Assembly (NCBI GenBank): GCA_030524285.1
Contig: JAUNGQ010000002.1
Coordinates: forward strand, 90,626-154,625
Direction of reading: 5' to 3'
DNA length: 64,000 nt
From: Eubacteriales bacterium
GTDB taxonomy: Bacteria; Bacillota; Clostridia; Oscillospirales; Butyricicoccaceae
Shown: positions 27,949 through 52,398 of the stretch, one piece after another
Layout: every line of letters starts with the position of its first letter
Position numbering within the stretch: position 1 is the stretch's first letter
Notes under the pieces: model-generated
Database searches by the model: none
The model's input: only the letters and a program-made list of their open reading frames with translations
What the model was told of the DNA's origin: nothing
Made by a program: the position numbers and the translations under genes

Positions 27949-28067
27949 TTGCAAAATCACAATCCGTCTGCTATAATACCTATATCAGTATCAGTAATTG
28001 CCTATGGGCAGTTAGAGTTTATCAGGTTACACAGTGTCTGGAGATTTTTCTTCAGGCACTTTTTTTG
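27949..28067 (+). promoter_or_regulatory. Shared promoter-leader-terminator module, copy 1
   Basis: TTGCAA (27949-27954), 17-base spacer and TATAAT (27972-27977). The expected RNA starts around ATCAGTATCA (27984-27993), then hairpin AATTGCC/GGCAGTT (27996-28013), AGAGTTTA (28014-28021) and an intrinsic terminator AGTGTCTGGAG/CTTCAGGCACT (28033-28060) with a T tract to 28067. The same order recurs at 41784 and 52276 with different stem sequences. It precedes the methylase-LigA operon. It is either an attenuator needing an anti-termination signal or a small RNA gene. Confidence 0.85.
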
Positions 28068-28097
28068 TTTCTTCTGCTTCTTTTTATAGAGGCACAG

Positions 28098-28135
28098 AAT
28101 GGGAAAGGCCGGAAGGTAGGGCCTTTCGCCCCATT
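28098..28135 (+). other. Long hairpin in the copy 1 leader
   Basis: AATGGGAAAGGCC (28098-28110) pairs with GGCCTTTCGCCCCATT (28120-28135) with a small bulge, between terminators 1 and 2. No T tract. Confidence 0.7.
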
Positions 28136-28167
28136 GTCAACAATTTCATATCAGGCCCTCGGGCAAC

Positions 28168-28208
28168 AAAGGCACTCAGAGAATTTCGGTTCTTTGGGTG
28201 CTTTTTTT
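28168..28208 (+). terminator. Second leader terminator
   Basis: AAAGGCACTCAGAGAA (28168-28183) with TTCTTTGGGTGCT (28190-28202), then seven Ts. Second of three tandem intrinsic terminators before the 28309 gene. Confidence 0.85.
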
Positions 28209-28217
28209 ATATAGATC

Positions 28218-28263
28218 GGAGCGTAGCTGCTCCCTAACTTTTATTCCGGGGAGCCGCTTTTTT
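28218..28263 (+). terminator. Third leader terminator with competing hairpin
   Basis: AGCTGCTCCC (28225-28234) can pair with GGGAGCCGCT (28249-28258), followed by six Ts. The 5' arm also pairs with GGAGC (28218-28222), giving a mutually exclusive hairpin, the layout of an attenuator. Confidence 0.7.
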
Positions 28264-28308
28264 GGTGTACCCGTTCACATATAAACATTTATGGAAGGAG
28301 TCGAATCT

Positions 28309-29058
28309 ATGAGCGACAACAAACGAAAAAAGCGGTCTTCTCAAAGTAAGGGCGCAAAACAGAAATCCCCTAAGGATCAACTGGTGGATGAAATCCGTAC
28401 TCTTGCGCAGTATCACGGGTTAAATCAGGTGTTCACAACATTTCTGGAGCTGACGGCACTTTGCCTCAGTATCGAGACGGAACCGATGACACGATCTGAA
28501 CGCACACAGCGCTATGAAGAAATCATGAAGACGTTGGATGAGCAGGCAACAACAGCTTATGCCAGAATGACTGCAGATCTCTTTATGGCAGTGCAGATGA
28601 GCATGGACGAACCATATGACATTTTAGGTGCCATTTTCATGGAGTTGGGATTGTCCAATGAGTGGAATGGTCAGTTCTTCACGCCAGACAATATATGTCG
28701 GATGATGGCAATGATTGTTGGCGTAGATCATCTGCCGGAAAAAGGCTGTGCGACGATCAATGAACCCACCTGTGGTTCTGGAGCAATGGTCTTGGGTGCA
28801 GTCTATGCTATGAAACAGAAAAACCAGGACTACCAGCACCATTCCCTGTTCATTGCACAGGACATTGATATCCGTTGTGTCTGGATGGCTTACATTCAGC
28901 TGTGGATGTATCAGATTCCCGCGATTGTAATTCATGGGGATACGCTGGCAATGAAGGAGTGGTCAAGATGGTACACACCATTTGTTACCTGTGTGGAACA
29001 ACCGGTGCAGGATACCGTTGAGGAGACAGAAGCGCAAAGCGAAAGAGAGGCGGTCTGA
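28309..29058 (+). CDS. N6 DNA methylase-like protein, catalytic NPPY/F motif not found
   Basis: 249 residues from ATG 28309 behind GGAAGGAGT. It has the HsdM-type core: GQFFTPDNICRMMA, the AdoMet-binding motif I as INEPTCGSGAMVLGA and the acidic motif in LFIAQDIDIRCVWMA. After VIHGDTLAMKEW, where NPPF or NPPY should follow, the sequence reads SRWYTPFVTCVE, so the catalytic tetrapeptide is missing. It may bind AdoMet or DNA without methylating, or act as a decoy against restriction. It opens the first long operon, after three tandem terminators. Confidence 0.8.
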   Translation: MSDNKRKKRSSQSKGAKQKSPKDQLVDEIRTLAQYHGLNQVFTTFLELTALCLSIETEPMTRSERTQRYEEIMKTLDEQATTAYARMTADLFMAVQMSMDEPYDILGAIFMELGLSNEWNGQFFTPDNICRMMAMIVGVDHLPEKGCATINEPTCGSGAMVLGAVYAMKQKNQDYQHHSLFIAQDIDIRCVWMAYIQLWMYQIPAIVIHGDTLAMKEWSRWYTPFVTCVEQPVQDTVEETEAQSEREAV

Positions 29059-29597
29059 TGGAATCCGTTGACAAGCCAATCACCTTTGAAGCATTGCGTG
29101 TCCATTACTATACGGGACGCTCTTATTTGATCCGCAGCGAGTACCGGCATAAAGTCTATGGCTTCCGGCAGGGCATGATGACGGATCTGGGCGATCTGGA
29201 CCCGGACGAATGGAAACGACTGGCACAACAGCTTATCGAGAACAGCGGCGAAGAGCAGCTGCAGACGGATCTGATGGAGTGGACGAACCAACATACGCCC
29301 TGGTTTCGTAATAAACAGGAGTTTGAACAGCGTGCGCTGGAACTTCATATGGCCCGGATTTTTGATAATCCTTTATGGGTGCATTATGTTTCATTCAATC
29401 ATCAGTATCGGCCTGAAGTGCTGGAAACGGCCAGACTGGTCTGGATTCTGACAGAATGCTGCCAGACACCTGCGCAAGTGACTTTGGAGCGATTTGAGGT
29501 GGCTAAAAGCAGAGATAACACGCTTTCCTGTCCGGTCTGTGGTCGTTTGTCCCAGTTTCGGAGATGCACATCGGAGGAGGTGAGCATGGATGGATAA
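29058..29597 (+). CDS. Hypothetical protein of the methylase operon
   Basis: 179 residues, start TGATG overlapping the methylase stop by one base, so surely co-translated. Tryptophan- and aromatic-rich (EWTNQHTPWFRNKQEF, NPLWVHYVSF), with a C-terminal LSCPVCGRLSQFRRC that offers three or four Cys for a metal knuckle. I do not recognise the family. Its coupling to the methylase-like gene suggests they act together. Confidence 0.7.
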   Translation: MESVDKPITFEALRVHYYTGRSYLIRSEYRHKVYGFRQGMMTDLGDLDPDEWKRLAQQLIENSGEEQLQTDLMEWTNQHTPWFRNKQEFEQRALELHMARIFDNPLWVHYVSFNHQYRPEVLETARLVWILTECCQTPAQVTLERFEVAKSRDNTLSCPVCGRLSQFRRCTSEEVSMDG

Positions 29598-29772
29598 GGT
29601 GTTTATTGTAGTAAAGGACGGTATGGTGCAGGAAGTATACAGTACCATGTCGCAACAAGAAGTATATGTTGAGGTTCTTGATTTGGACGTATCCGGGGTG
29701 GATGAAGAGCAGGAAAAGGCGCTTCACTTCCGGCATGAGGCCATTCGGGAATTGATGTATAGAATCGACTGA
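29590..29772 (+). CDS. Small hypothetical protein
   Basis: 60 residues, starting inside the end of the previous gene behind GGAGGAGGTGAG. It is a short beta-rich, acidic protein (MDKVFIVVKDGMVQEVYSTM, then VLDLDVSG). Similar short proteins with a KDG-MVQ-VY start are common on clostridial elements; the function is not known. Confidence 0.65.
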   Translation: MDKVFIVVKDGMVQEVYSTMSQQEVYVEVLDLDVSGVDEEQEKALHFRHEAIRELMYRID

Positions 29773-29789
29773 AGAAAGGAGATGCACAT

Positions 29790-31760
29790 ATGAGTGCGAA
29801 TCAAACAAAAACAGAGCGGATGAGGGAACTGATCCGCAAGATCAAAGAGGCGGATATTGCCTATTATAAGTACGACAATCCCAGTATGACAGACCGTGAG
29901 TATGATCTGCTGGTGGATGAACTGAAGGGGCTGGAGGCCGAAACCGGTCTGACACTCTCCGGTTCCCCGACGCAGATGGTGTCCGGCGATATCCTGGAGG
30001 AGCTGACGCCGGTGCGCCACACCAAACCCATGTTATCCGCAGACAAAACCAAATCGGTTGACGATCTGGTTCGGTTTGCCGCGGGCAGAGATGTCCTGCT
30101 TTCATGGAAGATGGATGGCCTGACACTGGTGCTACGCTATGAAAATGGGAGTCTGATTCAGGCAATTACCCGCGGCAGAGAAGGAATTATCGGTGAGGAT
30201 GTGACCCATACCGTCCGGACATTCCTGAATGTGCCTTTAATTGTCCCGACAAGAGATCCATTCGAGGTTCGGGGTGAAGGCGTCATTTCATGGGAGAATT
30301 TCGAGAAAATCAATCTCAGTCTGGAGGAAGGATATTCTCATCCGAGAAATCTGGCGGCCGGCAGCGTGCGGCAGTTGGACGCATCTGAGTCTAAGAAGCG
30401 GATGCTGGAATTTTTCGCATTTGAGCTGATCACAGACAACGACCATCATGTCAACAAGCTGTCCCATCTGGATTTTCTGGAGGCAAACGGGTTTACTGTT
30501 GTGCCGCATCTGTATCTGGACGCAGAAACTACGCCGGAGCGGGTTGTGGAGCTGGTTCAGGTATTTCAGCCGAAGAAATTCGGGTATCCGGTGGACGGTC
30601 TGATCATGGAATATGCAGACATCGCCTATGGCAGGAGTCTTGGAGCGACCGGGCATCACGAGAATCGCCTGATTGCCCTCAAGTGGGAAGACGAACTGTA
30701 TGAAACCAGGTTCTTGGATCTGGATGTGGCAGTTACCCGCAGCGGCATGGTCAGCCTGACTGGTATCTTTGAACCTGTGACCATTGACGGAACACAGGTC
30801 AGCCGCGCATACCTGCACAATTATGATAATTACCTGAAGCTGGCCCTGGGCAAAGGCGATACCATCCGGGTCTATAAGGCGAACATGATTATTCCGCAGA
30901 TTGCGGAGAATCTGACGAAAAGCGGCACCTGCTGTGTCCCTTCAACCTGCCCGTGCTGTGGTAAGCCACTGTTCATTCATACGACCAGCGGAGGGACAAG
31001 ACAGTTTTTCTGTGAGAATCCGCAGTGCGCCGCCAAACTGGTCCGAAAATTTGTCCATTTCTGTGAGAAGACCCGCATGAACATTGAGGGCCTTTCGGAA
31101 CTGACGCTGGAGAAATTCATCGGTCATGGATGGATCAGGACCTTTGGGGATCTCTACACACTGGAGCAGCACCGTGAGGAGATCATCCGCACAGAAGGCT
31201 TCGGTGAGAAATCCTATGAGCGTCTGCAGGCATCTATTGAGAAGAGTCGTCACTGCACATTGGCACAGTTTATTGCCGGAATGGGAATCCCGATGGTCGG
31301 CAGACACGCAGGCCGTGATCTGGACCGTTATTTCCACGGGTCCTGGGAAGCGTTTGAAGAGGCCATCCAGAGTGGCTTCGATTTCACGCAGCTTCCTGAC
31401 TTCGGCAAGACCATGAACAACAATATCTATCAGTGGTATGCGGACACAGAGGAAGAAAAGCTTTGGCGCCCGCTGCTTCAATACATCGAATTTGAAAAGG
31501 AGAATCCTACTATGAATACAAATATGAGCAATCCCTTTGCTGGGAAAACCGTTGTCGCAACTGGAAAACTGGAGAACTACACCCGTGACGGGATTCAGAT
31601 GAAGCTTCTGTCCCTGGGTGCAAAACCGGCGTCTTCCGTGAGCAAAAAGACCGATTACCTGATCGTCGGGGAAAAGGCTGGCAGCAAGCTGGCGAAAGCA
31701 CAGCAGCTGGGAGTAACGACCCTGACGGAGCAGGAATTTGAAAACATGCTGGCCGAATAA
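29790..31760 (+). CDS. ligA: NAD-dependent DNA ligase LigA, element copy
   Basis: 656 residues, full length for LigA. Order: Ia domain (IAYYKYDNPSMTDREYDLL), adenylation lysine at K107 in SWKMDGLTL, OB fold, four-Cys zinc finger (CPCC and CENPQC, about 385-415), HhH region (GFGEKSYERLQASIEKS) and a C-terminal BRCT (FAGKTVVATGKLENYTRDGI). The family seals nicks using NAD. A host must have its own chromosomal LigA, so this is probably an extra copy serving replication or repair of the element. A terminator follows directly. Confidence 0.94.
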   Translation: MSANQTKTERMRELIRKIKEADIAYYKYDNPSMTDREYDLLVDELKGLEAETGLTLSGSPTQMVSGDILEELTPVRHTKPMLSADKTKSVDDLVRFAAGRDVLLSWKMDGLTLVLRYENGSLIQAITRGREGIIGEDVTHTVRTFLNVPLIVPTRDPFEVRGEGVISWENFEKINLSLEEGYSHPRNLAAGSVRQLDASESKKRMLEFFAFELITDNDHHVNKLSHLDFLEANGFTVVPHLYLDAETTPERVVELVQVFQPKKFGYPVDGLIMEYADIAYGRSLGATGHHENRLIALKWEDELYETRFLDLDVAVTRSGMVSLTGIFEPVTIDGTQVSRAYLHNYDNYLKLALGKGDTIRVYKANMIIPQIAENLTKSGTCCVPSTCPCCGKPLFIHTTSGGTRQFFCENPQCAAKLVRKFVHFCEKTRMNIEGLSELTLEKFIGHGWIRTFGDLYTLEQHREEIIRTEGFGEKSYERLQASIEKSRHCTLAQFIAGMGIPMVGRHAGRDLDRYFHGSWEAFEEAIQSGFDFTQLPDFGKTMNNNIYQWYADTEEEKLWRPLLQYIEFEKENPTMNTNMSNPFAGKTVVATGKLENYTRDGIQMKLLSLGAKPASSVSKKTDYLIVGEKAGSKLAKAQQLGVTTLTEQEFENMLAE

Positions 31761-31776
31761 GAGGCAGCACAACAGT

Positions 31777-31807
31777 GGCGGAGTGGGAAACTGCTCCGCC
31801 CTTTTTT
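31777..31807 (+). terminator. Intrinsic terminator after ligA
   Basis: GGCGGAG (31777-31783) with CTCCGCC (31794-31800), then CTTTTTT. The next gene starts 15 bases later, so read-through is probably needed to express it. Confidence 0.85.
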
Positions 31808-31821
31808 AATGGAGGTTTGAT

Positions 31822-32531: not shown

Positions 32532-32544
32532 GGAGGAGATTGGT

Positions 32545-34794: not shown

Positions 34795-34814
34795 GGTACA
34801 GAAAGGATTCAGAA

Positions 34815-35030: not shown

Positions 35031-35043
35031 GAAAGGAATCAAG

Positions 35044-35718: not shown

Positions 35719-35758
35719 AGTTTCAAACAAAACAGTATCAGGTCAATATGACACAACC

Positions 35759-35783
35759 AGAGGCGTCGAAATTCGGCGCCTCT
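35759..35783 (+). terminator. Weak terminator-like hairpin
   Basis: AGAGGCG (35759-35765) with CGCCTCT (35777-35783), then ATCTTATTTT. Lies between the two YkgJ-family genes. Confidence 0.5.
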
Positions 35784-37260: not shown

Positions 37261-37563
37261 TTAAAAATTGCTGGGAGTGTACCGTACTGTAACGATATGC
37301 ACTTCTTTTTTTTCTTTCAGCACCTTATAAATGATGACATAGTTTTTTACAAAGAGTTGACGATATTTCCCGTTTGCATAAGCACCAATACGGCGGAGCG
37401 GACCGCGTTCCGGCAACTGCTCCAGACTAAAGATTGCTTTCTCCAATTCGTCCACCATATTTATGGCCGTTCCGGGTTCCAGCAAATGTTCTGCAATATA
37501 GGTGTAAATATCATCTAAATCACGGTAAGCGCGAGCATAGAGTTTAACAACATATTTATCCAA
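37261..37563 (-). CDS. RelE/ParE-family toxin
   Basis: 100 residues from a TTG at 37563 behind GGAGGA, overlapping the antitoxin by 8 bases. The pattern YVVKLYARAYRDLDDIYTYIAE, LPERGPLRRIG, YRQLFVKNYVIIYKV and VHIVTVRY is that of the RelE/ParE superfamily. RelE members cut mRNA on the ribosome, ParE members poison gyrase; sequence alone does not settle which. Acts with the antitoxin upstream. Confidence 0.9.
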   Translation of the reverse strand: MDKYVVKLYARAYRDLDDIYTYIAEHLLEPGTAINMVDELEKAIFSLEQLPERGPLRRIGAYANGKYRQLFVKNYVIIYKVLKEKKEVHIVTVRYTPSNF

Positions 37564-37819
37564 AATGCTTCCTCCGTAAAGAAGAAAGTGCATCTCTGGC
37601 ATCCAGTAATATGCCTTCAGCAGCATACTCATTTTCCGCTTCGCTGATTGCAGTATCGGTTCGAGCGGTTTCAAGCATTTCTTCGTAGGTTTCAATACTC
37701 ATAACAACCAGATCTCCGTATCCGTTTTTCGTGATGAAAAGTGGCTCGCGTTTGGAATGACAAAGCTCGGAAATCTCCGTAGTATTTCTCAGGTCTGTAA
37801 TGGGTCTGATCTGCGGCAT
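37556..37819 (-). CDS. Phd/YefM-type antitoxin
   Basis: 87 residues: IRPITDLRNTTEISELCHSKREPLFITKNGYGDLVVMSIETYEEM is the Phd/YefM fold that binds DNA; the C-terminal 35 residues should wrap the toxin. Start behind AAGGAGG. The complex should repress its promoter, which has a perfect inverted repeat across the -10 box. Confidence 0.92.
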   Translation of the reverse strand: MPQIRPITDLRNTTEISELCHSKREPLFITKNGYGDLVVMSIETYEEMLETARTDTAISEAENEYAAEGILLDARDALSSLRRKHFG

Positions 37820-37836
37820 AGCACACGCCTCCTTTC

Positions 37837-37874
37837 TTGCACATTATTATAGCAGAATTATGTGCAAAATACAA
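37837..37874 (-). promoter_or_regulatory. Toxin-antitoxin promoter and operator
   Basis: On the minus strand TTGTAT (37874-37869), 17-base spacer, TATAAT (37851-37846). TTGCACAT (37837-37844) and ATGTGCAA (37860-37867) form a perfect inverted repeat around the -10 box, the likely autoregulatory site. Confidence 0.8.
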
Positions 37875-37988
37875 GAGGGCTATACACAATTCCGATTATA
37901 GAACTGCAGAGCTGCAAAAAAAATACCATCTGTATCAGAAGGTGTATTCCTTCTTGCTATCAGGTGGTATTTGTCATCTTGCTGCTCT

Positions 37989-38327
37989 TTAGATATTTTT
38001 GTACTTGTCGATTTCAAGTAACAAACGATAAAGCTGTTCCTGTTCTGCTTCCGTTTTTGCGGCGAGAAATTCATAACATTCCAGTGGAATATTGCGGTCG
38101 CCTTCTCCCTGTCCGCCCAGCTGTTCCAAAAGCGTTGAGAGTGGAACATTCAAAGCGGCAGCAATCTTCTCAATGCTCTCCAGGGTAGCGTTCTTTTCAC
38201 CGCGTTCAAGCTGACCAATATATGTCGGGTGGCAGCCGCAAAGCTCTGCCACTTTCTCCTGACTCCAGCCAAGTTTCGTCCTGTTGTTTCTGATCCGCTG
38301 TCCAATGATTTTTGCAATTTCACTCAT
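37989..38327 (-). CDS. XRE-family regulator
   Basis: 112 residues; ATG 38327 is chosen over an in-frame ATG 12 bases upstream because of its spacing to AAGGA. HTH: IGQRIRNNRTKLGWSQEKVAELCGCHPTYIGQLERGE shows helices 1-4, followed by a helical C-terminal tail (FLAAKTEAEQEQLYRLLLEI). It faces a region with several TATAGTCTATA-like dyads and the divergent SLOG gene, so it likely controls both. A similar XRE protein lies at 62043. Confidence 0.85.
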   Translation of the reverse strand: MSEIAKIIGQRIRNNRTKLGWSQEKVAELCGCHPTYIGQLERGEKNATLESIEKIAAALNVPLSTLLEQLGGQGEGDRNIPLECYEFLAAKTEAEQEQLYRLLLEIDKYKNI

Positions 38328-38354
38328 AGCCGTTCCCATCCTTTTTTCCTAATA

Positions 38355-39909: not shown

Positions 39910-39987
39910 ATGACATGGAAAAGGAAATCTGTTATACTCTTAGTGTCTACAAGTGGGTCTTTGGATAGAACCACTTGTCATTTTTTT
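39910..39987 (+). promoter_or_regulatory. Promoter followed at once by a terminator
   Basis: ATGACA (39910-39915), 17-base spacer, TATACT (39933-39938). Only about 5 bases into the expected transcript a stem ACAAGTGG (39949-39956) / CCACTTGT (39971-39978) is followed by seven Ts. The 40015 gene starts 28 bases later, so it is expressed only on read-through or anti-termination. Confidence 0.75.
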
Positions 39988-40014
39988 GAGTAAGAAGCAA
40001 AGGAGCGTGCGAAA

Positions 40015-41783: not shown

Positions 41784-41908
41784 TTGACTATTGCGGCGGG
41801 ACATGCTATAATACCTATATCAGTTTCATGGTTTTCCGAGGAAAATCCATAGTTTTCAGAGTTTACAAAGTGTCAGTTAGCACAAACGTGCTGATTGGCA
41901 CTTTTTTT
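41784..41908 (+). promoter_or_regulatory. Shared promoter-leader-terminator module, copy 2
   Basis: TTGACT (41784-41789), 17-base spacer, TATAAT (41807-41812). Leader: ATCAGTTTCA (41819-41828), an internal hairpin GGTTTTCC/GGAAAATCC, AGAGTTTA (41858-41865), then the terminator AAGTGTCAGTTAGCAC (41868-41883) / GTGCTGATTGGCACTT (41888-41903) with seven Ts. It stands 87 bases upstream of the SSB gene, and two more small hairpins (ACCTGC/GCAGGT, TGCAGG/CCTGCA) lie in between. Confidence 0.88.
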
Positions 41909-41994: not shown

Positions 41995-42492
41995 ATGTTA
42001 AAAGTATTTGCAACCAATGTCATTATCTCCAACGGGTATAATGGCGCGTCCGCCCTCAAGTTTTCCGATAATGGTGATTCTGTGCGGTTCCGTTTCGGCA
42101 AAAAGGTGTATGACACCCGCGCTGAGAACAACACCCGCTGGGTCAACATGTCTGTAAAGGCATTCGGCAACGTCTGCGAGCGTATCAAGAGTATGAAGCT
42201 CAAGGAAGGTTCGTTTGTCAACCTGACCGGCAGACTGGACGAGGATTCCTGGACAGATCAGAACACCGGCGAACACAAGAGCATGATGGTCATCATCCTG
42301 GATGACATCGAATATGCCTCTGGCGGCGGTGGAAAGAAGGAGAACCAGGCATCTGGTCAGACTCAGAACGGCGGTGCAAATGCACCTGCACCTGCAGCAG
42401 CACCTGCAGCAGCTGCGCCTGCTCCGGCAGCATCCGGGAATTTTACCGGGTATGAGCCGTTTGGCGGCGGTTCGCTGTTTGACGAAAACTGA
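41995..42492 (+). CDS. ssb: Single-stranded DNA-binding protein
   Basis: 165 residues behind AAGAAAGGAG. OB-fold SSB core in residues 1-105 (FATNVIISNGYNG, TRWVNMSVKAFGNVCERIKSMKLKEGSFVNLTGRL, MMVIILDDIEYA), then a Gly and Ala/Pro-rich linker and the tail GSLFDEN. The tail is acidic but lacks the usual DDIPF end, so it may recruit element proteins rather than the host set. It heads the operon with the AAA ATPase. Confidence 0.88.
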   Translation: MLKVFATNVIISNGYNGASALKFSDNGDSVRFRFGKKVYDTRAENNTRWVNMSVKAFGNVCERIKSMKLKEGSFVNLTGRLDEDSWTDQNTGEHKSMMVIILDDIEYASGGGGKKENQASGQTQNGGANAPAPAAAPAAAAPAPAASGNFTGYEPFGGGSLFDEN

Positions 42493-42521
42493 CAGGAAAA
42501 ATGAATCCGGCGTATAAAAGG

Positions 42522-42560
42522 CGCACATGAGTGACTATTCGTAGCCTCATGTGCGTCTTT
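42522..42560 (+). terminator. Intrinsic terminator after ssb
   Basis: CGCACATGAG (42522-42531) with CTCATGTGCG (42546-42555), then TCTTTTTG. Allows high SSB output relative to downstream genes. Confidence 0.88.
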
Positions 42561-42586
42561 TTGCGTTTATGGAAGGTGGTGAACAA

Positions 42587-42970
42587 ATGACAAATGAAGC
42601 ATTCCTGCTCTTATCAGAGGATGAGAGGCAGGCAAAACTCAGGGCGGTCTTGATGAGCAGGACCGGCGGCCGTCTAACCAATGAGGAGTTGGAGGACATT
42701 TTGCTTTCAGCCATACCGAAACGGCAATACGGCGTGAAGGTCTATCAGGATGCACAGGCATTTTGCCGCGACCTGGCCCTTCCGGATGGCTGTCGGGGCC
42801 GTACCATACTGGGACAGGTCATGGCAGGCAGCGGACAGGAACCAGGTATGCTGTTTTGCAAAACGCGGGCAGCTGCAGTTCTGGTAAGAAAACAGGCGGA
42901 GGAAAGTGAGGTTTATCAGATCCATATATTCATTCCGCCGGAACGATCACAGAAAGGATATCAAAGATGA
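42587..42970 (+). CDS. Hypothetical protein
   Basis: 127 residues from ATG 42587 behind GGAAGGTGG. N-terminal helical part (LLLSEDERQAKLRAVLMSRTGG; LTNEELEDILLSAI) and a beta-rich C-terminus. No family recognised. Overlaps the next gene by 4 bases. Confidence 0.65.
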   Translation: MTNEAFLLLSEDERQAKLRAVLMSRTGGRLTNEELEDILLSAIPKRQYGVKVYQDAQAFCRDLALPDGCRGRTILGQVMAGSGQEPGMLFCKTRAAAVLVRKQAEESEVYQIHIFIPPERSQKGYQR

Positions 42971-43791
42971 ACAACAAGGATTGGAAACGACACTTTGCAT
43001 ATGAGGCACTGGTAATACTGGGCCTGCTGGCACTACTGACTTTTATTTGCCGCCTGTGGCCGATTTTGTTACTGGTGATACTCGGTATTTTCGTAGCGGC
43101 AATCCGGTTGTTATTTCTTGCTTCCAGGCGCATAGAAACCGTGGAGCCTCAGCCGATTCCGCAGGAACCTGTTCGGGAACCAACGGAAAAAGATGTCCGG
43201 GCATTGGCTTATGCTGTCATACTCAGACGGATTACAGAGCTGGTGGCAGAGGAATATCCTGAGGCCCGTTGGGTCTGGGAGATCCCGGATGCAAAGCAGG
43301 AGATTGAAAAAGGCGGAAATGTCTATATTCTGCTCAATCGGGCAGGTGGATATCGGCGTGCAAGAGTCATCCTGCAAAACCTTCAGGTTGTGCGCATCGA
43401 CTATCATCCCTCCGATCCGGTGGAGAATCCTGATCCCGAACCTGCTGACGATACGGATGCAGGAAGTGAGGAGCTTGATGCGGACGACGCATCGGAAGAT
43501 GGTGAAGCGAATGGCGGAGAACCTGCGGATGATGAGGAACCTGTCAAAGAAAATTATGAGCTGATCGCGTTTGAATGGGTGGAGGCACATGCTCTGGAGC
43601 TGAATGAACGGTGTAACGAGGCTATGGGACAGGGCTTTACGGAACTGATCCTGATATCGGAGGAGCTTCCTGTCCAGGAAAGCTGGCCGGATATCTGCCG
43701 GGAACTATGCAGAGCAGGTCTTGCGGATGTGCAGCCTGTTCCGGATGGCATCAAAATCAATTTAAGCAGTGATACTGTAGAAAGGGAATAA
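42967..43791 (+). CDS. Membrane protein with acidic linker
   Basis: 274 residues. Two closely spaced hydrophobic helices (ALVILGLLALLTFICRL and PILLLVILGIFVAAIRLLFLAS), a cytoplasmic domain (ALAYAVILRRITELVAEEYPEARWVWEI), a strongly acidic low-complexity stretch at about 155-195, and a C-terminal helical domain. Four bases separate it from the AAA ATPase gene. It could tether that ATPase system to the membrane; this is inference from position. Confidence 0.65.
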   Translation: MNNKDWKRHFAYEALVILGLLALLTFICRLWPILLLVILGIFVAAIRLLFLASRRIETVEPQPIPQEPVREPTEKDVRALAYAVILRRITELVAEEYPEARWVWEIPDAKQEIEKGGNVYILLNRAGGYRRARVILQNLQVVRIDYHPSDPVENPDPEPADDTDAGSEELDADDASEDGEANGGEPADDEEPVKENYELIAFEWVEAHALELNERCNEAMGQGFTELILISEELPVQESWPDICRELCRAGLADVQPVPDGIKINLSSDTVERE

Positions 43792-43794
43792 CAC

Positions 43795-45669
43795 ATGAGT
43801 ACGAATATGAATAATCTATTTTGCTACAGCCGGCCGCTGCCAGCGCCTTTTGATACGCTCAAGAATAAGAAAGTGGGTGTATCGTCCAAGTATGGAGATG
43901 GCACACAGGCAACCCTCAGCGGAACGGTAATTAAGGCGGTCCATGCGGTCTGCCAGTGCATGAACGGTACGTCTGAAGGCGCCGTTGGTGTGATTGATCA
44001 CCGAAGCGTGGCGGAATACAAATCCAGTATGGGTGCAGACGCCTATCATCTGGTGGTCTACGACAGCAATTCGGGCGCAATTATGGCAAGCGTGTATGAC
44101 AAGAACACGGAAGTGTTTGAAACCTACACGATGAATAACAGTGGCCGGGATGGCGCTGCAGTTATGATGGCTTTAATGCCGGTGCTGATGAATGATGACG
44201 AGTTCAAAGAACACTTTGACCAGTATTACGATCAGTTCATCAGCGGCTTTACAGATCTGCCCAAGGCAACCGAGTCTATGGGTTATCTGTGTGATAACGC
44301 ATATAGACGGATCAAAGATCCCGGCTGTTCGGCCCATGTCAAAGTCAACGTAGATAAATCCGGCAACCTGATGCGTGTGTCACAGGCCCAGCTGGATTCC
44401 GGCGCTTTTACGCCGACCAGTGTGGTAGCTGGCGAATTTACGATCTTTGCGAAGACCGGACCGGCAACCATCAAAAAGGCCAGTATCATAGTGGAGCATT
44501 CAGATTTTGTCGGGAAGTATGAGTTTCATGCAAGAAAGCTGAACCCGCAGGAGCAGATGCTGGTGCCGAAGCTTCCGGAATGGTACATCATTCCGCAGGA
44601 AGTGGTGGATATTTGCAAGCATGCGCAGGCCACAACGGGAAAGTCCATGCAGATGAGGAACTTTCTTCTGCGCGGCCCGGCAGGTACGGGTAAGACAATG
44701 GGGGCCAAAGCGATTGCTGCAGGACTCCATCTGCCGTACATGAAGTATACCTGCTCCGCCGGAACGGAGATCTTCGACTTTATCGGTATGATTTTTCCCG
44801 ATTCAGATTCTGCATCCACTGGCGATGCCCAGTTGGATCAGGAGCGTGAAATCTTAAAAAGCATGGGTGGCATCAATTATGCCAATGTGTCTAAGCTGAT
44901 GGATCTGCCCGATCTGGATGATATGGATTACGACCCGGCAGGCGTTTATCTGGCGCTGACCGGCATAGAGAAATCCGACGCCACCTCCCAGGAGTGCATG
45001 AGCATTGTCCTGGACAAGGTAACGGAAAAGGTTCGGGCCTTATCCAAACGGGATGAAGCATCCCAGAGCAGCGGTCAAACCTACACCTATGTGGAGACGG
45101 ATTTTATCAAGGCGCTGAAAAACGGTTACGTCATTGAAATCCAGGAACCTTCCACTATCGTCCAGCCTGGTGTGCTGGTGGGCCTCAACTCCCTTCTGGA
45201 GCAGTCTGGTTCCATCACCCTGCCGACCGGTGAAGTGATTGAAAGGCATCCAGATGCTGTGGTCGTAGTCACGACCAATATCAGTTACGAGGGTTGCCGC
45301 GGCATGAACCAGTCGGTGCTGGACAGAATGAGTCTGGTGCGGGATGTGGAACTGCCGACTCCTGAAGTTATGGTACAGCGGGCTATGTCTGTAACCGGCG
45401 AGACGGATGAGTATCAGGTTTCCCAGATGGTGCAGGTGGTCAATGACATGGCGGAGTATTGCCGGAAGAACAGTATTACAGACGGTTCCTATGGTATGCG
45501 CAGCCTGATCGACTGGATCGTCAGCACACAGATTACCGGAGATCCTTATCAGTCGGCACTGTATACAATTATCAGCAAAGCGACTGCGGATGAGCTGGAC
45601 CGGGAATCCTTGATCAGTACGGTTCTGGAACCGATTTTCGCTCCAAAGCGGCGTAAAGCCACAGCATAA
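43795..45669 (+). CDS. MoxR/CobS-type AAA ATPase
   Basis: 624 residues, a large N-terminal domain of about 270 residues and an AAA module with Walker A LLRGPAGTGKTMGAKAI (about 290), a long insertion with acidic residues (DLPDLDDMDYDPAG), sensor-type VVVVTTNISYEGCRGMNQSVLDRM and a lid helix. In CobS/NorQ/MoxR families such ATPases work with a VWA protein to remodel or load metal into targets; the VWA partner is the next gene, 27 bases away. The N-terminal domain is not recognised and may bind the client. Confidence 0.85.
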   Translation: MSTNMNNLFCYSRPLPAPFDTLKNKKVGVSSKYGDGTQATLSGTVIKAVHAVCQCMNGTSEGAVGVIDHRSVAEYKSSMGADAYHLVVYDSNSGAIMASVYDKNTEVFETYTMNNSGRDGAAVMMALMPVLMNDDEFKEHFDQYYDQFISGFTDLPKATESMGYLCDNAYRRIKDPGCSAHVKVNVDKSGNLMRVSQAQLDSGAFTPTSVVAGEFTIFAKTGPATIKKASIIVEHSDFVGKYEFHARKLNPQEQMLVPKLPEWYIIPQEVVDICKHAQATTGKSMQMRNFLLRGPAGTGKTMGAKAIAAGLHLPYMKYTCSAGTEIFDFIGMIFPDSDSASTGDAQLDQEREILKSMGGINYANVSKLMDLPDLDDMDYDPAGVYLALTGIEKSDATSQECMSIVLDKVTEKVRALSKRDEASQSSGQTYTYVETDFIKALKNGYVIEIQEPSTIVQPGVLVGLNSLLEQSGSITLPTGEVIERHPDAVVVVTTNISYEGCRGMNQSVLDRMSLVRDVELPTPEVMVQRAMSVTGETDEYQVSQMVQVVNDMAEYCRKNSITDGSYGMRSLIDWIVSTQITGDPYQSALYTIISKATADELDRESLISTVLEPIFAPKRRKATA

Positions 45670-45696
45670 ATTCTAAGGAAGGAGGTCTACCCATTT

Positions 45697-47952
45697 ATGG
45701 CAAGGGTGAATCACAAATTAGTAAAGCAGCGCCTCAACGAGCAGCGCAGCAAAATCACGGACAGACAGTTCTTCTCGTCCCGCATCTTAGCGGGACACTT
45801 TGAAGATCTGGCGGCGGCACAGACACGGCGGTATCACTATAACCGCCGCGTTCATGTGAATCTGTACTGGAAACCGAAGGACAAAAGTGTTGCTGCAACG
45901 GACAATATGCTGATCCGCATCAACGCAGGCAATCCTCTGGTTACGAAGGTCAAGGGACGCGAGAACCGCTATCAGATCGTATGCGGGCTGTTTACCCATG
46001 AGTTGGGTCATGTACTGCATACAGACTTTCTGGCCGCGCAGACACACAGCAATTACCTGGCAAGCTACCGCTGGTATCCTGGTCCTCCCGCCCTGAAAAC
46101 ATCTGCGGACGCCCGAAATGAAAAGGCGTTCTGGACGTATGTAAAGGGCGATCCAAAGAACCTGGAAATGGTGCAGTTTATTGCCCATCAGATTTCTAAT
46201 GTGATTGAGGATGGGTATATCGAGAACCGTATGTTGGCACAGTTCCCTGGAACTTTGGGATATGGCCTGGAAACGCTCCGGGAACTGCATTTTCAGCAGA
46301 TGCCCACTGTGACCCAGCTGATTGAAAAGGAAGAAGGCGAAGAACGGCATATCTTTGAGAGCATTTTACAGATTATGTTGTCATATGCCAAATTCGGAGA
46401 GATCAAGTATGGGGACGAGCCGCTGAGCGATGAACGGATTCAGACTGTTTTCGGGCTGATCACAGATATCGACAGTGCGTTGATGAACAGATCGGGAAAA
46501 GGACGCTTGAATGTAGTGAACCTGATCATGGTACGGTGCTGGAACTACCTTGAGGATTTCCTGGAAGTTTGTAAGCAGCGGCACGAAGATGCAGCTGCAG
46601 CTGGTGGCACAGGTGGTATTGCCGAGACGCTATCGGAAGTCCTTCAGGCGATTGCAGGCGGTTCTGCCATTGGTACTGGAAGCAGCACTCCTGTGTCGGA
46701 AGCAGCGGATGAGTCTGAAGAATCCGCTACTGCTGGCCAGCGTGCCAAAACCCATGCGGATGCGGAAGAAAGCGCTGCGCCGGAAGAATCAGAAGACGGC
46801 TCCCAGACCGGAACGGAAAGCGAAGAAAATCCATCTGGGTCTGGGGAAAGCGCAGAATCTATGGGCGAGGCGCTTGCTGGTGGCGGCGCCGGTTCCGGAA
46901 AGCAGGAAGTATCCGAAGGCGAGACGGGACGGATTCCCTATCAGCAGACAGAAAGTGTTTCAGAACCGGTTGGCGGCACTACGGAGGTCAATGACTCCTA
47001 TGAACGGGAGCGCTATGACCATGCTGCAGCCGACATTGAGCGGATTCTGGACAAGATGGCTGAACGGGCTGCCTGTGAGCAGTTAGAAAATGAACGGCTT
47101 CGGGAGTTGAATGATGTGGCGCAGAATATTTCCTATGGGGATATTCATTCAGGCGTCAGTATCAGAATCAATCGGCTTGCCAGTGTGGATGAAGATCTGG
47201 TAGAGCAATACGACATGATTGCTGCTCCGCTGATCAGTATTTCCAGGCAGCTGCAGAAAAGTCTCGTCAAACAACTCAAGGAAAATCGCCGCGGCGGGAA
47301 GCAGACGGGCCTGATTATGGGACGCCGGCTGGATGCACATGCGCTGTGCCGGAATGATGGAAAGGTATTCTACAAGAACTCTCTGCCCAATGAGATCCCG
47401 GAACTGGCCGTCGGTCTGCTTCTGGATGAATCTGGTTCTATGTGCGCCTGTGACCGTTGTACTTATGCCAGAGCATCTGCGATCATCCTGTATGATTTCT
47501 GCCAGAGTCTGGGCATCCCGGTCATGGTCTATGGCCATTCTACCGGATGCTCGACCGTGGAACTGTACTCTTATGCGGAGTTCGAGAGCTTCGATCAGGA
47601 TGATAAGTACCGGATGATGGACATTGGTGCGCGAGACAGCAACCGCGACGGAGCTGCACTCCGCTATGTGGCGGAGCGACTTTCCAAACGACCGGAGGCA
47701 GTCAGAATACTGATTCTGGTTTCGGATGGACAGCCCGCTGACAGTGGTTATTACGGCAGCGCAGCTGAGGAAGATCTTCGGGGCATCAAACAGGAGTATC
47801 AGCGCAAAGGCATTTTGTTCGTTGCCGCCGCAATCGGTGACGACAAGCAGAACATTGAACGGATCTACGGAGATTCCTTTATGGATATTACCGATTTGAA
47901 CCAACTGCCTGCTAAGCTGACCACAGTGGTCAAGCGGCACATTCGAGTGTAA
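45697..47952 (+). CDS. VWA protein with HELGH motif (CobT-like)
   Basis: 751 residues behind GGAAGGAGG. Residues about 60-200 hold GLFTHELGHVLHTDF, a zincin-type HExxH metal site (about 101), and NVIEDGYIENRML. A Ser/Glu-rich low-complexity linker spans about 310-440. The C-terminal VWA domain has a MIDAS DxSxS (LLLDESGSMCACDRC, about 575), then GHSTGCSTVELY and LILVSDGQPAD. This is the partner expected of the AAA ATPase. The HELGH motif suggests proteolysis or metal insertion; I cannot tell which. Confidence 0.85.
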   Translation: MARVNHKLVKQRLNEQRSKITDRQFFSSRILAGHFEDLAAAQTRRYHYNRRVHVNLYWKPKDKSVAATDNMLIRINAGNPLVTKVKGRENRYQIVCGLFTHELGHVLHTDFLAAQTHSNYLASYRWYPGPPALKTSADARNEKAFWTYVKGDPKNLEMVQFIAHQISNVIEDGYIENRMLAQFPGTLGYGLETLRELHFQQMPTVTQLIEKEEGEERHIFESILQIMLSYAKFGEIKYGDEPLSDERIQTVFGLITDIDSALMNRSGKGRLNVVNLIMVRCWNYLEDFLEVCKQRHEDAAAAGGTGGIAETLSEVLQAIAGGSAIGTGSSTPVSEAADESEESATAGQRAKTHADAEESAAPEESEDGSQTGTESEENPSGSGESAESMGEALAGGGAGSGKQEVSEGETGRIPYQQTESVSEPVGGTTEVNDSYERERYDHAAADIERILDKMAERAACEQLENERLRELNDVAQNISYGDIHSGVSIRINRLASVDEDLVEQYDMIAAPLISISRQLQKSLVKQLKENRRGGKQTGLIMGRRLDAHALCRNDGKVFYKNSLPNEIPELAVGLLLDESGSMCACDRCTYARASAIILYDFCQSLGIPVMVYGHSTGCSTVELYSYAEFESFDQDDKYRMMDIGARDSNRDGAALRYVAERLSKRPEAVRILILVSDGQPADSGYYGSAAEEDLRGIKQEYQRKGILFVAAAIGDDKQNIERIYGDSFMDITDLNQLPAKLTTVVKRHIRV

Positions 47953-48022
47953 GCATTAGGCGGCGGAGACAGATGTTTCCGCCGCCATAATTTGAAATCA
48001 AAATATAACGGAGGTAATGAGA

Positions 48023-49009: not shown

Positions 49010-49707
49010 GCATTTTTCAGATTTCTCTGATGGCAGCTGGTTTTATTTTAACGGCGGTCTATGTGCTGTTCTGGGCTGAAAGCAGTTTCAAAGTATCAAG
49101 AGTTTTCTACAACGATGACGGTGTTGAACTTCCCGGCCTGCTGGTTCAAAGGCCATTTTGCCGGCCTGTATTTTTCCCATTCGAGGCCGTGTGCGGGTTT
49201 GACAGTCAAATCATCTACAAGGAAAATGAAGCACTGATTCGTCCGATGGGAGTCGTTGATATTGCTGGCGGATTGGGTACGCACATATTGTGTCTGCCGG
49301 ATACCACAGCATCGGCTGAGAAAGCGAAAGCACCTCAAACGAAGGAGGCCTCGATTATGCTCGATCCGAAAGAAATCGTGATCCATAAAGATGAAATCTC
49401 CCGCATCCTTAAAATGCGCTGGATTGCCTGCTATATGCTGTATGATTGGAACAAATGGCATGCAGATTTTGCGTTTGGCAGCAATGAGTTTGAACGGTAT
49501 CAATGGGTTTGCCGGAAATTAGAGGATAAGGTTCCGGATGCAGCATCCATGGATTCCGTTTTGACGGATACCTATAATCGGGTCTTGCTGGAGGATGTAG
49601 ACGGTTTTATTCACACGCATATGCAGGTGTGGAATTGTGAACGCCTGATGGTTGAGATGGAGATTGTAAGAGCATTGGCAGAACTCTATCACACAAACGA
49701 AGTATAA
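49006..49707 (+). CDS. Membrane-anchored hypothetical protein
   Basis: 233 residues. One N-terminal hydrophobic helix (FQISLMAAGFILTAVYVLFWA), then a segment VELPGLLVQRPFCRPVFFPFEAVCGF that is clearly related to residues 10-40 of the DUF4314 protein at 51385, then a helical C-terminus (MRWIACYMLYDWNKWHADF). Function unknown. Confidence 0.65.
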   Translation: MSIFQISLMAAGFILTAVYVLFWAESSFKVSRVFYNDDGVELPGLLVQRPFCRPVFFPFEAVCGFDSQIIYKENEALIRPMGVVDIAGGLGTHILCLPDTTASAEKAKAPQTKEASIMLDPKEIVIHKDEISRILKMRWIACYMLYDWNKWHADFAFGSNEFERYQWVCRKLEDKVPDAASMDSVLTDTYNRVLLEDVDGFIHTHMQVWNCERLMVEMEIVRALAELYHTNEV

Positions 49708-49759
49708 CAATGGTATCCGCTCCGGCAGGAGCGGATATAGAAAATGGAGGACATTAGAA

Positions 49760-50446
49760 ATGTATATAAAAGAAACTTGTTACGGAGGGATGGACTGGCA
49801 TGATAGCAAGCTGATCATTACACAGCTGAAATGGGACGGAAAATATGATATTCCGGAAAGCAAGGTTACAGACTGCATTGTAAATGATATTCTACAGCAG
49901 TTTCCCTATCTGGACCCGATGGATATTTGTTTTGCGGTGCTGAATGATCAGCCGTATAAATTCCCGCTCTTATATCTGAAAGATGATGAAGTGGTTTATC
50001 CGGAAGAGTATGAAGGGATCTGGATTTCTGCCGGGGAAATAAAGGGATTCAGCGTTAAGGAAACCTATATAGGCGGTTGCAATTATTCGACACACTATAG
50101 CGTGGAAGCCATTCCAGAGGAGCAGCTGTGCTACATTGCGGAGGAGCATTTTTATGCGTATTCAAAAGGGGTTCCGCTTGTAGAGCGATTCTATCATGCT
50201 CCTTTTCGGAGACTGGATGAAGCAGAAGCCTATCTGAAAACAATGAAGAAACACGCTCCGGATGCAGAGCTTTCTATCCAGATATATAACCTGGAGGAAA
50301 TTAGTGCTACAGACTGGTTTCAGTCAAATATGAAGGCCGCAGAACTCTCATCCGGCGATCCGGAAAAGGGCTATGCGATTGTAGTAGATCTGCATATTGA
50401 AAATCTAAAGAAATTGGCGTCTCCAGACCCGGAGGTGAGGGTATGA
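49760..50446 (+). CDS. Hypothetical protein
   Basis: 228 residues behind TGGAGG. Beta-rich and acidic (YGGMDWHDSKLIITQLKWDGKYDIPESKV), later KETYIGGCNYSTHYSVE. No family recognised. It overlaps the following methylase-like gene by 4 bases. Confidence 0.65.
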   Translation: MYIKETCYGGMDWHDSKLIITQLKWDGKYDIPESKVTDCIVNDILQQFPYLDPMDICFAVLNDQPYKFPLLYLKDDEVVYPEEYEGIWISAGEIKGFSVKETYIGGCNYSTHYSVEAIPEEQLCYIAEEHFYAYSKGVPLVERFYHAPFRRLDEAEAYLKTMKKHAPDAELSIQIYNLEEISATDWFQSNMKAAELSSGDPEKGYAIVVDLHIENLKKLASPDPEVRV

Positions 50447-51369
50447 GCAAAAATCAGGCGAGGCCGCTGACCAGCATCGTTTCATATCCGGAACGGGGCG
50501 AAGGCGGCAGCAATCGTTACAGGGGGAACTGTTCCCCGAAACTGGTGGAAGATCTGATTCGATTCTTTCAGCCGAATGAAGTCTGCGATTACATGAGCGG
50601 CAGCGGAACCACGAAGGCCGCAGCAGATAAAGTTGGGATACAAAGTCATCTGTATGACCTGCACAGTGGGTTTGACATGATGCACTGCGACATCCCGGAA
50701 CGGCCGGAATTTATTTTCTGGCATCCTCCATACTGGGATATTGTGACTTACTCGGATGTCATGTATAAGGCGTCCGATGTGCAGCTTCAGTATGGGTATG
50801 ACCCGAAGCAGTCCGACTTGTCCCGCATTCTGGAATGGGACCGCTTTGTCGAGGCCATGAACTACTCCATGATGAAGCAGTTTTCTGCACTGGAAAAGGG
50901 CGGGCGCATCGCCGTACTGATGGGCGATATCAAGAAGAAAGGCAAGCTCTACAGTATGTTAGCTGAAATCGTTAAGCCCGGAACGCTGGAGAACATTATT
51001 ATCAAGGCTCAGCATAACTGTTTTTCGGACCAGATCCAGTATAGTGGGAAATTCATTCCGATTCTCCATGAATATGTAATGATTGTTCGGAAAGATAATT
51101 CCCTGCTGGTGCCGGTCCTGATGACCAGGCAGGCATCTGTGGATATCCGGGATATACCGCAAGCGACCTGGCGTGACGTTGTGGCGTCCGTCTTGGAGCA
51201 ATACCAGGAAGCGGTGCCGCTTACCTATCTGTATGAGCAGATCGAACCGCATCAGAAGGCGCAGGCGAATAAGTGGTGGAAGGAGAAGATTCGCCAGACA
51301 CTGCAGTATCATCCGAACTTTTTTGAACATCACGGTCGTGGCCTTTGGAGCCTTCGCACAGCGATATAA
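50443..51369 (+). CDS. DNA methylase-like protein (N4/N6 class) with HPPYW motif
   Basis: 308 residues behind GGAGGTGAGG. The AdoMet-binding motif reads CDYMSGSGTTKAAA (usual D-F-GSGTT), and the catalytic motif reads FWHPPYWDIV, with His in place of the usual Asp, Asn or Ser before PPY. A region GGRIAVLMGDIKKKGKLY matches motif VI-VIII strands. A C-terminal 80-residue domain (PLTYLYEQIEPHQKAQANKWWKEKIRQTL) may read DNA. No restriction enzyme is nearby, so it is an orphan methylase or decoy. Confidence 0.82.
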   Translation: MSKNQARPLTSIVSYPERGEGGSNRYRGNCSPKLVEDLIRFFQPNEVCDYMSGSGTTKAAADKVGIQSHLYDLHSGFDMMHCDIPERPEFIFWHPPYWDIVTYSDVMYKASDVQLQYGYDPKQSDLSRILEWDRFVEAMNYSMMKQFSALEKGGRIAVLMGDIKKKGKLYSMLAEIVKPGTLENIIIKAQHNCFSDQIQYSGKFIPILHEYVMIVRKDNSLLVPVLMTRQASVDIRDIPQATWRDVVASVLEQYQEAVPLTYLYEQIEPHQKAQANKWWKEKIRQTLQYHPNFFEHHGRGLWSLRTAI

Positions 51370-51384
51370 AGGAGAAGCGCGTAT

Positions 51385-51762
51385 ATGAAAGTAACAAAAG
51401 TTTATCTGGATGACAGAGGCATCCTTGTTCCGGGACATCTAATAGAACGGGCGTTTTGCAAATCCGTATTCTATCCCTTCGATGTCCGGTGCGGATTCAG
51501 CTGTCAGTACATAACAGACCGGGGATTGCTGGTTGAATTTAATACAAGGGCCTATCGGGAGTTTTATAAGAAAACATATCCGGTGGGGACCAAAATTGCC
51601 GTTTTGGAAATGAGGGAGGAACCCTATCCGGTTCCAAAAGGAATGGTGGGAACGGTCACACTGGTGGACGATATAGCAACCATTCATTGCCGTTTCGAGA
51701 ATGGCAGGTGCCTCGGTGTGATACCGGGAGTTGACAGCTTTCTGATCATCTCAAAGGCATAG
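51385..51762 (+). CDS. DUF4314 protein with extra N-terminal segment
   Basis: 125 residues behind AAAGGAGAAG. Residues about 65-125 are DUF4314: YPVGTKIAVLEMREEPYPVPKGMVGTVTLVDDIATIHCRFENGRCLGVIPGVDSF (shown here in family order), an SH3-like strand set. The N-terminal 45 residues resemble a segment of the 49006 protein. Common on conjugative elements, function unknown. Confidence 0.75.
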   Translation: MKVTKVYLDDRGILVPGHLIERAFCKSVFYPFDVRCGFSCQYITDRGLLVEFNTRAYREFYKKTYPVGTKIAVLEMREEPYPVPKGMVGTVTLVDDIATIHCRFENGRCLGVIPGVDSFLIISKA

Positions 51763-51776
51763 TATCAAAAGTAAGA

Positions 51777-51805
51777 GGGGTGTCGTTTCGGCGGCATCCC
51801 TTTTC
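51777..51805 (+). terminator. Intrinsic terminator
   Basis: GGGGTGTCG (51777-51785) with CGGCATCCC (51792-51800), wobble pairs, then TTTTC. Confidence 0.75.
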
Positions 51806-51847
51806 TTTATAGCCGAAAACAATGCAAATCAATTAGGAGGCAAAGTT

Positions 51848-52072
51848 ATGAGTGAAAACAGGAGTATCCATTTTGTAGACAGTAACAACCGGGAACTGTT
51901 TCAAATTCCGGATGGAGGGTTTATCGTCAGACTCTGTGGTAATGGGGACAGTGACTATGGCATCTGTCATTATCTGGACGCAGACCATATGGATATCGAC
52001 GGGCAGCGTTTTTCGCTGCTTGAGTTTGCTGAAAAAATGGAGCGAAACGGGATTTCCTATTTCCCAGCATAG
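51848..52072 (+). CDS. Small hypothetical element protein
   Basis: 74 residues behind TAGGAGGC. Beta-rich start (SIHFVDSNNRELFQIPDGGFIVRL) and FSLLEFAEKMERNGISYFPA at the end; the pattern is common among small proteins of clostridial elements. Function unknown. Confidence 0.65.
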   Translation: MSENRSIHFVDSNNRELFQIPDGGFIVRLCGNGDSDYGICHYLDADHMDIDGQRFSLLEFAEKMERNGISYFPA

Positions 52073-52120
52073 GGAGAGGAGACTGTTAGCATATACAATA
52101 AAAACCGGGGAGGTGATGGC

Positions 52121-52234
52121 ATGAAGTTGTTGATTTTCTTTGGTGGATTTACGGTCGGCGGTCTGTTTGGAGTAGTCCTGATGTGTCTGCTCCAGGCGCA
52201 TCGGCTGTATGGTTCCATGTATGATGAGGAGTGA
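52121..52234 (+). CDS. DUF3789 small membrane protein
   Basis: 37 residues, too short for most gene callers. ATG 52121 behind GGGGAGGTGATGGC. One membrane helix (LLIFFGGFTVGGLFGVVLMCLLQA) followed by a short charged tail (HRLYGSMYDEE), the exact layout of DUF3789 peptides found on conjugative elements of Firmicutes. Role unknown. Confidence 0.75.
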   Translation: MKLLIFFGGFTVGGLFGVVLMCLLQAHRLYGSMYDEE

Positions 52235-52275
52235 TTTTTGCAGGCAGTAAGCTCCTTTCCTTTTGTTCGGACGGA

Positions 52276-52398
52276 TTGACTATTATGATGGATTCTGCTA
52301 TAATACTTACATCAGTATCAGGTTTGAACACAGTTCAAGCACAGTTTAACAGAGTTTATCATAGTGTCATTTGCATTTTTGCAGATGGCACTTTTTTT
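52276..52398 (+). promoter_or_regulatory. Shared promoter-leader-terminator module, copy 3
   Basis: TTGACT (52276-52281), 17-base spacer, TATAAT (52299-52304). Leader: ATCAGTATCA (52311-52320), hairpin TTGAAC/GTTCAA (52324-52338), AGAGTTTA (52351-52358), terminator AGTGTCATTTGCA (52363-52375) / TGCAGATGGCACT (52380-52392) with a T tract. Precedes the recombination and replication operon. Confidence 0.88.

Follow-up and report, generated by a model that had tools for sequence, protein, structure and literature searches.

A leader RNA repeated before the main operons of a clostridial integrative element, a candidate for cis-acting antitermination

We analyzed a stretch of 64,000 nucleotides (nt) from an Eubacteriales bacterium of the Butyricicoccaceae (GenBank assembly GCA_030524285.1, contig JAUNGQ010000002.1, positions 90,626 to 154,625; hereafter the window), in which a module of promoter, short leader RNA and intrinsic terminator stands before each of three operons of a putative integrative element. 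The leader is a structured RNA family with compensatory changes across homologues and with no Rfam match in the stretches scanned. As far as sequence comparison tells, it marks a widespread integrative element, carried mainly by genomes labelled Lachnospiraceae and Oscillospiraceae. We lean towards the explanation that the modules are cis-acting antitermination leaders reused throughout the element; read-through, processivity, the trigger and any involvement of a protein are what we infer for them. In the open-licence literature searched, we saw no description of this RNA or of the element.

A structured leader RNA in three modules and their relatives

The modules occupy 27949-28067 (A), 41784-41908 (B) and 52276-52398 (C) on the forward strand, and all their parts lie in the same order and at the places given by a first-pass annotation of the sequence. 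Each begins with a sigma-A promoter with a 17-nt spacer, TTGCAA-17-TATAAT in A (27949-27977) and TTGACT-17-TATAAT in B (41784-41812) and C (52276-52304). Six bases past the promoter, at the expected transcript start, begins the 5' box ATCAGTWTCA, which reads ATCAGTATCA in A (27984-27993) and C (52311-52320) and ATCAGTTTCA in B (41819-41828). The box is followed by a small hairpin, helix 1 (27995-28014, 41828-41850 and 52322-52340), by a linker predicted to be single-stranded (28015-28032, 41851-41866 and 52341-52362) and by an intrinsic terminator (28033-28067, 41867-41908 and 52363-52398). Each module transcript folds as two hairpins, with z-scores of -5.2, -5.8 and -5.4, and for each module none of 200 dinucleotide shuffles was as stable. 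The hairpin loops are UAUG, CGAG and ACA. The linker element AGAGTTTA, singled out in the first-pass annotation, is present in all three copies and proved to belong to a more extended conserved linker of approximate sequence AGTWWYCMGDGTTNC. The outer terminator stem AGTGTC/GGCACT, described there as constant, is so within the window; its place is taken in relatives by AGCGCC/GGCGCT or other stems.

Relatives were collected with the AAA protein of operon B (43795-45666) as query. Among 394 genomes of the order it had matches in 111, mostly to a short ATPase stretch; close homologues over the full length turned up in G262 (77%) and G160 (75%), and a few other genomes have distant ones (34-46%). 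In G262 and G160, leaders stand before the orthologous operons. A covariance model, R1, trained on six copies (two each from the window, G160 and G262), recovers copy A, which lay outside its training set, with 49 bits and an E value of 4.7e-8. Over 200 genomes of the family of G262, R1 gave 25 matches, eight of which, without promoter and box, were rejected by eye; the 17 kept copies lie in five genomes, and G552, G543 and G368 were new. A scan of GTDB species genomes with the AAA alignment yielded 78 loci and a scan of viral contigs three more, and over these 81 loci R1 had 106 matches. The leader collection comprises 94 distinct sequences, up to five of them dubious, mostly from Clostridia. 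Five sequences were omitted from the folding of the hairpin alone, and four of these from the count of downstream genes and terminators, as antisense, cut, misaligned or weak; one analysis step took 60 of the available sources, with near-duplicates omitted by eye. A second model, R2, had all three window copies in its training set. Searched up to an E value of 10, the window gives R2 nothing but the three copies and a minus-strand match over the copy B terminator (22 bits). R2 adds a leader at locus L180 and, at just 29 bits, one at L145.

The alignment of 86 distinct copies shows compensatory change. Standard pairs fill 92.6% of pair cells, compared with 70.3 ± 0.7% when the 3' letters are shuffled, and the covariation score is 0.593 as against 0.197 after shuffling. 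Sliding the partner strand leaves at most 48.9% of cells paired, and in 20 curated copies 92.4% of cells are paired versus 69.0% when shuffled. Two-sided changes occur in all seven helix-1 pairs and in 11 of the 14 terminator pairs. The alignment was fitted to the model and is therefore biased in its favor; as a check, helix 1 was folded by itself, with no input from the model structure, and reached p ≤ 0.05 in 60 of 89 copies, the linker in 4 of 85. The first-pass annotation had argued for selection on RNA structure from stems that vary and still pair, and had named a lack of covariation in homologous elements as what would refute it; the homologous copies do covary. The AGTWTC of the 5' box is near-invariant across the 86 copies. 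The promoter is conserved as well: among 102 matches, 95 have a promoter with at most three mismatches and 93 a 17-nt spacer, and in 84 the -10 element ends 6-7 nt ahead of the RNA.

At L180 both copies retain the box and the linker with a different terminator stem, so the terminator letters are probably not a recognition site. The exact terminator pattern occurs in the window's own genome alone among 87 of its family and in none of the viral contigs, since the terminator sequence drifts. In several distant copies the linker repeats, as judged by eye, the 5' box and the bases that follow it, as with AGTATCCGAGTTTT, present twice in L157_8436. As a separate observation, the terminator after a C-type leader of G368 (L092, 10533-10617) appears by eye to be split by a small palindromic insertion. 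A further arrangement, at 39910-39990 in the window and at about 6402 in L116, has a promoter with TTAGTGTC directly after it and then a terminator-like hairpin, helix 1 being absent, and stands before a zinc-ribbon gene; it is possibly a degenerate module.

That the RNA belongs to no named family, as the first-pass annotation had it, agrees with Rfam. At gathering score, release 15 gave an FMN riboswitch and a pemK RNA alone in the window, with nothing over the leaders; loci L035-L038, L050 and L051 gave pemK alone and no leader match. In a permissive scan of copy B the top score was 21 bits (L10_leader), compared with a cut-off of 44.

Placement of the leader before orthologous operons

In the window, with genes assigned from Pfam and orthology, copy A precedes an operon that starts with an N6-methylase-like gene, the open reading frame (ORF) at 29058 and the NAD-dependent DNA ligase gene ligA (28291-31760). 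Copy B precedes SSB, the ORFs at 42551 and 42967, the AAA ATPase and a VWA/CobT-like gene (41995-47952), and copy C precedes P52505, a YqaJ recombinase, a RecD2-like helicase and a DUF3854 gene (52505-60425). The proposal that each copy stands before a long operon carries over to other elements, where SSB, P52505-YqaJ and ligA again follow the leader; it needs amending for operon A, which is not unbroken up to copy B because minus-strand ORFs intervene at about 37261-38339. By eye, one of these interrupting ORFs resembles a RelE-type toxin and another a helix-turn-helix protein.

Where more than 2 kb was available upstream of the AAA gene, a leader lies within 4 kb upstream of it in 56 of 60 loci. 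These 56 loci hold 41 distinct leaders, and the positional evidence comes from R1, which was untrained on those loci save L117, L126 and L179, three loci from or repeating its training genomes. The gene downstream of 90 distinct copies is SSB in 45, P52505 followed by YqaJ in 24 and ligA in five; the remaining 16 have no match to SSB, P52505 or ligA within 3.5 kb. In the Schaedlerella genome an additional ORF, which resembles a group II intron reverse transcriptase, sits between leader B and the SSB gene (G608:C1, about 1990458-1991756; L222).

A class-wide search with R2 over 391 genomes found matches at E ≤ 0.001 in 12, split into strong ones (at least 59 bits; six genomes, the window's own and G160 among them) and weak ones (at most 39 bits; six genomes). 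In the four other strong genomes, eight of nine matches precede SSB, P52505-YqaJ or ligA, whereas none of the seven weak matches does. Three of the nine exactly duplicate rows of the training set, which means that R2 had already met at least G627 and G964; of the remaining six, five precede one of those genes.

The copies cluster. Because the genome searches with the RNA models scored the best first-look candidates alone (21 per genome for R1 in the family, 150 for the ten genomes and 11 for R2 in the class), counts per genome are lower bounds. Ten whole genomes or records hold at least 48 matches at E ≤ 0.01, with 2-10 copies each, and in seven of the ten all matches fall within one stretch of 19-70 kb: at least 3 copies in 35 kb of 6.5 Mb in Schaedlerella, at least 10 in 70 kb in the complete genome CCNA10, and at least 8 in 46 kb in Pseudoflavonifractor An184. 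Blautia parvula has at least 3 copies in 40 kb and a weak one (40 bits) 108 kb distant, Eubacterium 14-2 carries a pair on a single contig and has two further matches (52 and 45 bits) on different contigs, and Acutalibacter (G262) has at least 7 copies on two contigs. The carriers include Blautia parvula NBRC 113351 and Schaedlerella arabinosiphila DSM 106076. Most loci are labelled Lachnospiraceae, Oscillospiraceae or other Clostridia; four leader-bearing loci (L121, L136, L137 and L161) come from bins labelled Bacteroidales.

In G552 and Schaedlerella the leader-bearing stretch is recognizable as an integrative element: one end carries serine recombinases, and a sortase gene lies close to the opposite end. 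Pfam supports two of the serine recombinases of G552; those of Schaedlerella were judged by the look of the sequence alone. The sortase gene adjoins a tyrosine recombinase gene in Schaedlerella and in the window. The window is the final 64 kb of its contig in an incomplete assembly (1.56 Mb, 73% complete), so its element is truncated at the contig end.

A distant relative of the element, on contig 65 of G331 (L247-L252; 41631-78455, minus strand), carries an unrelated promoter-RNA-terminator module (TTGACAGTATGCAGT...) nine times within 37 kb, with a gene downstream of eight of the nine by a simple rule; Rfam had no match in that region. If the leaders act as the element-wide password suggested below, this module of G331 means that the design would have arisen more than once.

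The antitermination reading and its alternatives

Promoter sites with at most two mismatches lie upstream of the leader in 84% of cases. Between the terminator and the first gene, which was found for 85 of the 94 copies, such sites show no enrichment: they occur in 1% of the gaps that span 46 nt or more, versus 2% of shuffled gaps, so transcription of the genes most likely must cross the terminator. At many copies there is more than one to cross. A second terminator follows 23 of the 24 P52505-type copies (2.5% in shuffled gaps), in the window at 52423-52452 after copy C, and a further terminator follows all five ligA-type copies (8% in shuffled gaps). Copy A has one at 28168-28205 and a third terminator-like hairpin at approximately 28218-28263 (offset 191, -15.3 kcal/mol). 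Codirectional terminator patterns also lie inside the operons, at 31777-31800 past ligA in operon A and at 60434-60459 between the DUF3854 gene and a parM-like gene; such internal terminators are called a good indication of processive antitermination in PMC8955417.

These terminators bear on the strongest alternative, attenuation at a single site, in which an element or host protein would bind the box, helix 1 and linker and control the adjacent terminator alone. The conserved unpaired linker does resemble a protein site, and 42 of the 45 SSB-type copies have one terminator, as this explanation would predict. However, because a further terminator follows at P52505- and ligA-type copies, a single-hairpin switch would be insufficient there, and the differing terminator stem of L180 also counts against it. 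Nor does any competing antiterminator helix covary: the 19 highest-ranking column pairs that the model leaves out are either shifted terminator columns or pairings with near-constant columns, and none of them makes a helix. We consider single-site attenuation unlikely. A candidate antiterminator helix seen by eye, AGTATC with GGCACT, was rejected, as the 5' box is unchanged in copies with AGCGYC/GGCGCT stems and the pair does not covary.

The modules could instead be small-RNA genes, their RNAs of about 85 nt acting in trans while the operons are transcribed otherwise. A strong promoter followed by a strong terminator would yield an 85-nt RNA by default, but the gap to the first gene shows no enrichment of promoters from which the operons could be transcribed, the copies precede orthologous operons in many genomes, and a genome can hold as many as 10 copies, of which the ones examined further stand before ORFs; we think this explanation improbable. 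We give equally little weight to a plain promoter with an insulating terminator, in which expression would come from leakage and the helix would have no regulatory role: a terminator that insulates an integrated element is documented for Tn916 (PMC11658703), but the near-invariant AGTWTC, the conserved linker and the covarying helix 1 would then need explaining.

If the modules are antitermination leaders, a polymerase that starts at the sigma-A promoter would copy some 50 nt comprising AGTWTC, helix 1 and the unpaired linker. By itself or together with a factor, this RNA would alter the elongation complex so that the adjacent terminator is passed. At operons A and C the altered complex would pass one or two more terminators and continue into the operon. 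Polymerases not started at the module promoter, arriving by read-through from a neighboring operon or from the host, would stop at the terminators, and the same RNA before the main operons would make the element one regulon. Because the switch occupies corresponding positions in related elements, it is probably a common control through which only properly started transcripts pass. More tentatively, and with somewhat less confidence than we place in antitermination as such, we suggest that this antitermination RNA of about 50 nt acts as an element-wide password before core and cargo operons, licensing polymerases from its own promoters through an RNA-only or element-specific mechanism. A small RNA before each main operon would then be a simple form of whole-element control that keeps host read-through out. 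As a defined RNA with a consensus and covariation, present in named carrier strains, the leader makes antitermination on a mobile element directly testable.

Several observations weigh against the antitermination reading. Just 3 of the 45 SSB-type copies have a second terminator, and simple attenuation would account for the 42 with a single one as well. The internal terminators at 31777 and 60434 are pattern matches; as a motif of the TTGTAA class at 60498 follows the latter, the ParM-type gene beyond it may form a unit of its own. A good sigma-A promoter match is missing from a few copies (for example L130_8538, L134_1961 and L143_1461), L153 and L169 carry the AAA operon with no leader detected by R1 or R2, and the weak match at L145 has a 60-nt insertion in helix 1. 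In whole-genome searches, two conserved proteins of unknown function encoded in the window were found in part of the 11 leader-bearing genomes: P40504 (40564-41130, upstream of module B) in 7, once as a fragment with a stop, and P36532 (36532-37203) in 8.

The last point touches the suggestion in the first-pass annotation that a common antitermination factor could switch the element on, which we could not substantiate. P40504 and P36532 both had no match in G331, G380, G415, G120 and G132 (0 of 5), of which the first four were searched for the leader. There, in the stretches retrieved, R1 gave nothing above 18.2 bits, and P36532, P40504, P41143, P42967, P52505 and P58493 had no tblastn match; G120 also had no R2 match in the class-wide scan. 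Since some of the 11 genomes are fragmented or low in copies, absence is weak evidence. Still, neither P40504 nor P36532 is shown to be needed. None of the six proteins matched a family above cut-off; weak matches include Pfam hits in single members and, for P58493, two PHROGs of unknown function (E about 0.002).

A NusG paralogue of the LoaP type was considered as a general factor and rejected. In a search of ten genomes, the NusG family (PF02357) was represented once each in G262, G160, G552 and G543, twice in G368 and not at all in the incomplete genome of the window, so four of the five leader-bearing genomes besides the window's have a single NusG. Because most leader-bearing genomes hold one match, such a paralogue is unlikely to be general. 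The leader may act through RNA alone, as the authors of PMC11658703 thought most likely for canT of Tn916.

Neighboring features and comparison with known systems

The ParM-type gene (60574-61494; actin-like by Pfam) is one of three window genes with a second promoter-like class upstream, TTGTAA-N17-TGTAAT with a conserved CG before the -10. The motif stands at 6889, 40511 and 60498, before the integrase, P40504 and ParM-type genes. With at most two mismatches it occurs at 27 of 35 distinct P40504 loci, compared with 0.6% after shuffling. Exact matches number 13, spread over 7 of 12 genomes; 11 lie within or next to leader-bearing elements, and the reversed control pattern gave two. The window also encodes, at 62647-63066, a small protein of the sigma-70 region 4 / ECF-like kind (Pfam PF08281; also above cut-off for TIGR02937). 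It has orthologues in G609, G608, G552 and G262 and no match in G610 or G615, and is a possible user of the TTGTAA class. The pemK RNA motif lies at 63514-63577 in the window and at 10084-10163 in L037, in a similar place after ParM-type genes in both elements. The FMN riboswitch, left of module A at 23873-23989, lies in a region flanked by a pair of direct repeats of 300 nt, at 22901 and 25651, that are 92% identical.

By analogy, the leader most likely works like nut, put, canT or conAn, membership in any of these not being shown. HK022 put and lambda nut are short RNAs near a promoter that are used at more than one operon; their hosts differ from the carriers of the leader, and the comparison is one of descriptions. 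LoaP, a member of the NusG family, binds a hairpin of the UNCG type (PMC12691694), and its leaders likewise have a small hairpin between promoter and terminator. Unlike them, our leader has a UNCG tetraloop in just 3 of 94 distinct copies, and four of five leader-bearing genomes besides the window's have a single NusG.

As described (PMC11658703, PMC8955417), canT and conAn are longer or bipartite and act at one operon. For canT of Tn916, a 452-bp fragment at one promoter was used and some shorter fragments were active (PMC11658703), whereas our leader is about 50 nt, in several copies each with its own promoter; this too is a comparison by description. Like canT, the leader is element-encoded, most likely a cis-acting RNA, and lies between promoter and terminators on an integrative element of Gram-positive hosts, and the insulation of integrated Tn916 by a terminator (PMC11658703) would have its counterpart here. 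Unlike conAn, which combines the protein ConAn1 with the RNA conAn2, the leader occurs in several copies and has no known protein. Antitermination that acts from the start of a long operon on a mobile element and blocks spurious transcription is described for conAn of pLS20 (PMC8955417) and is what we propose for the leader.

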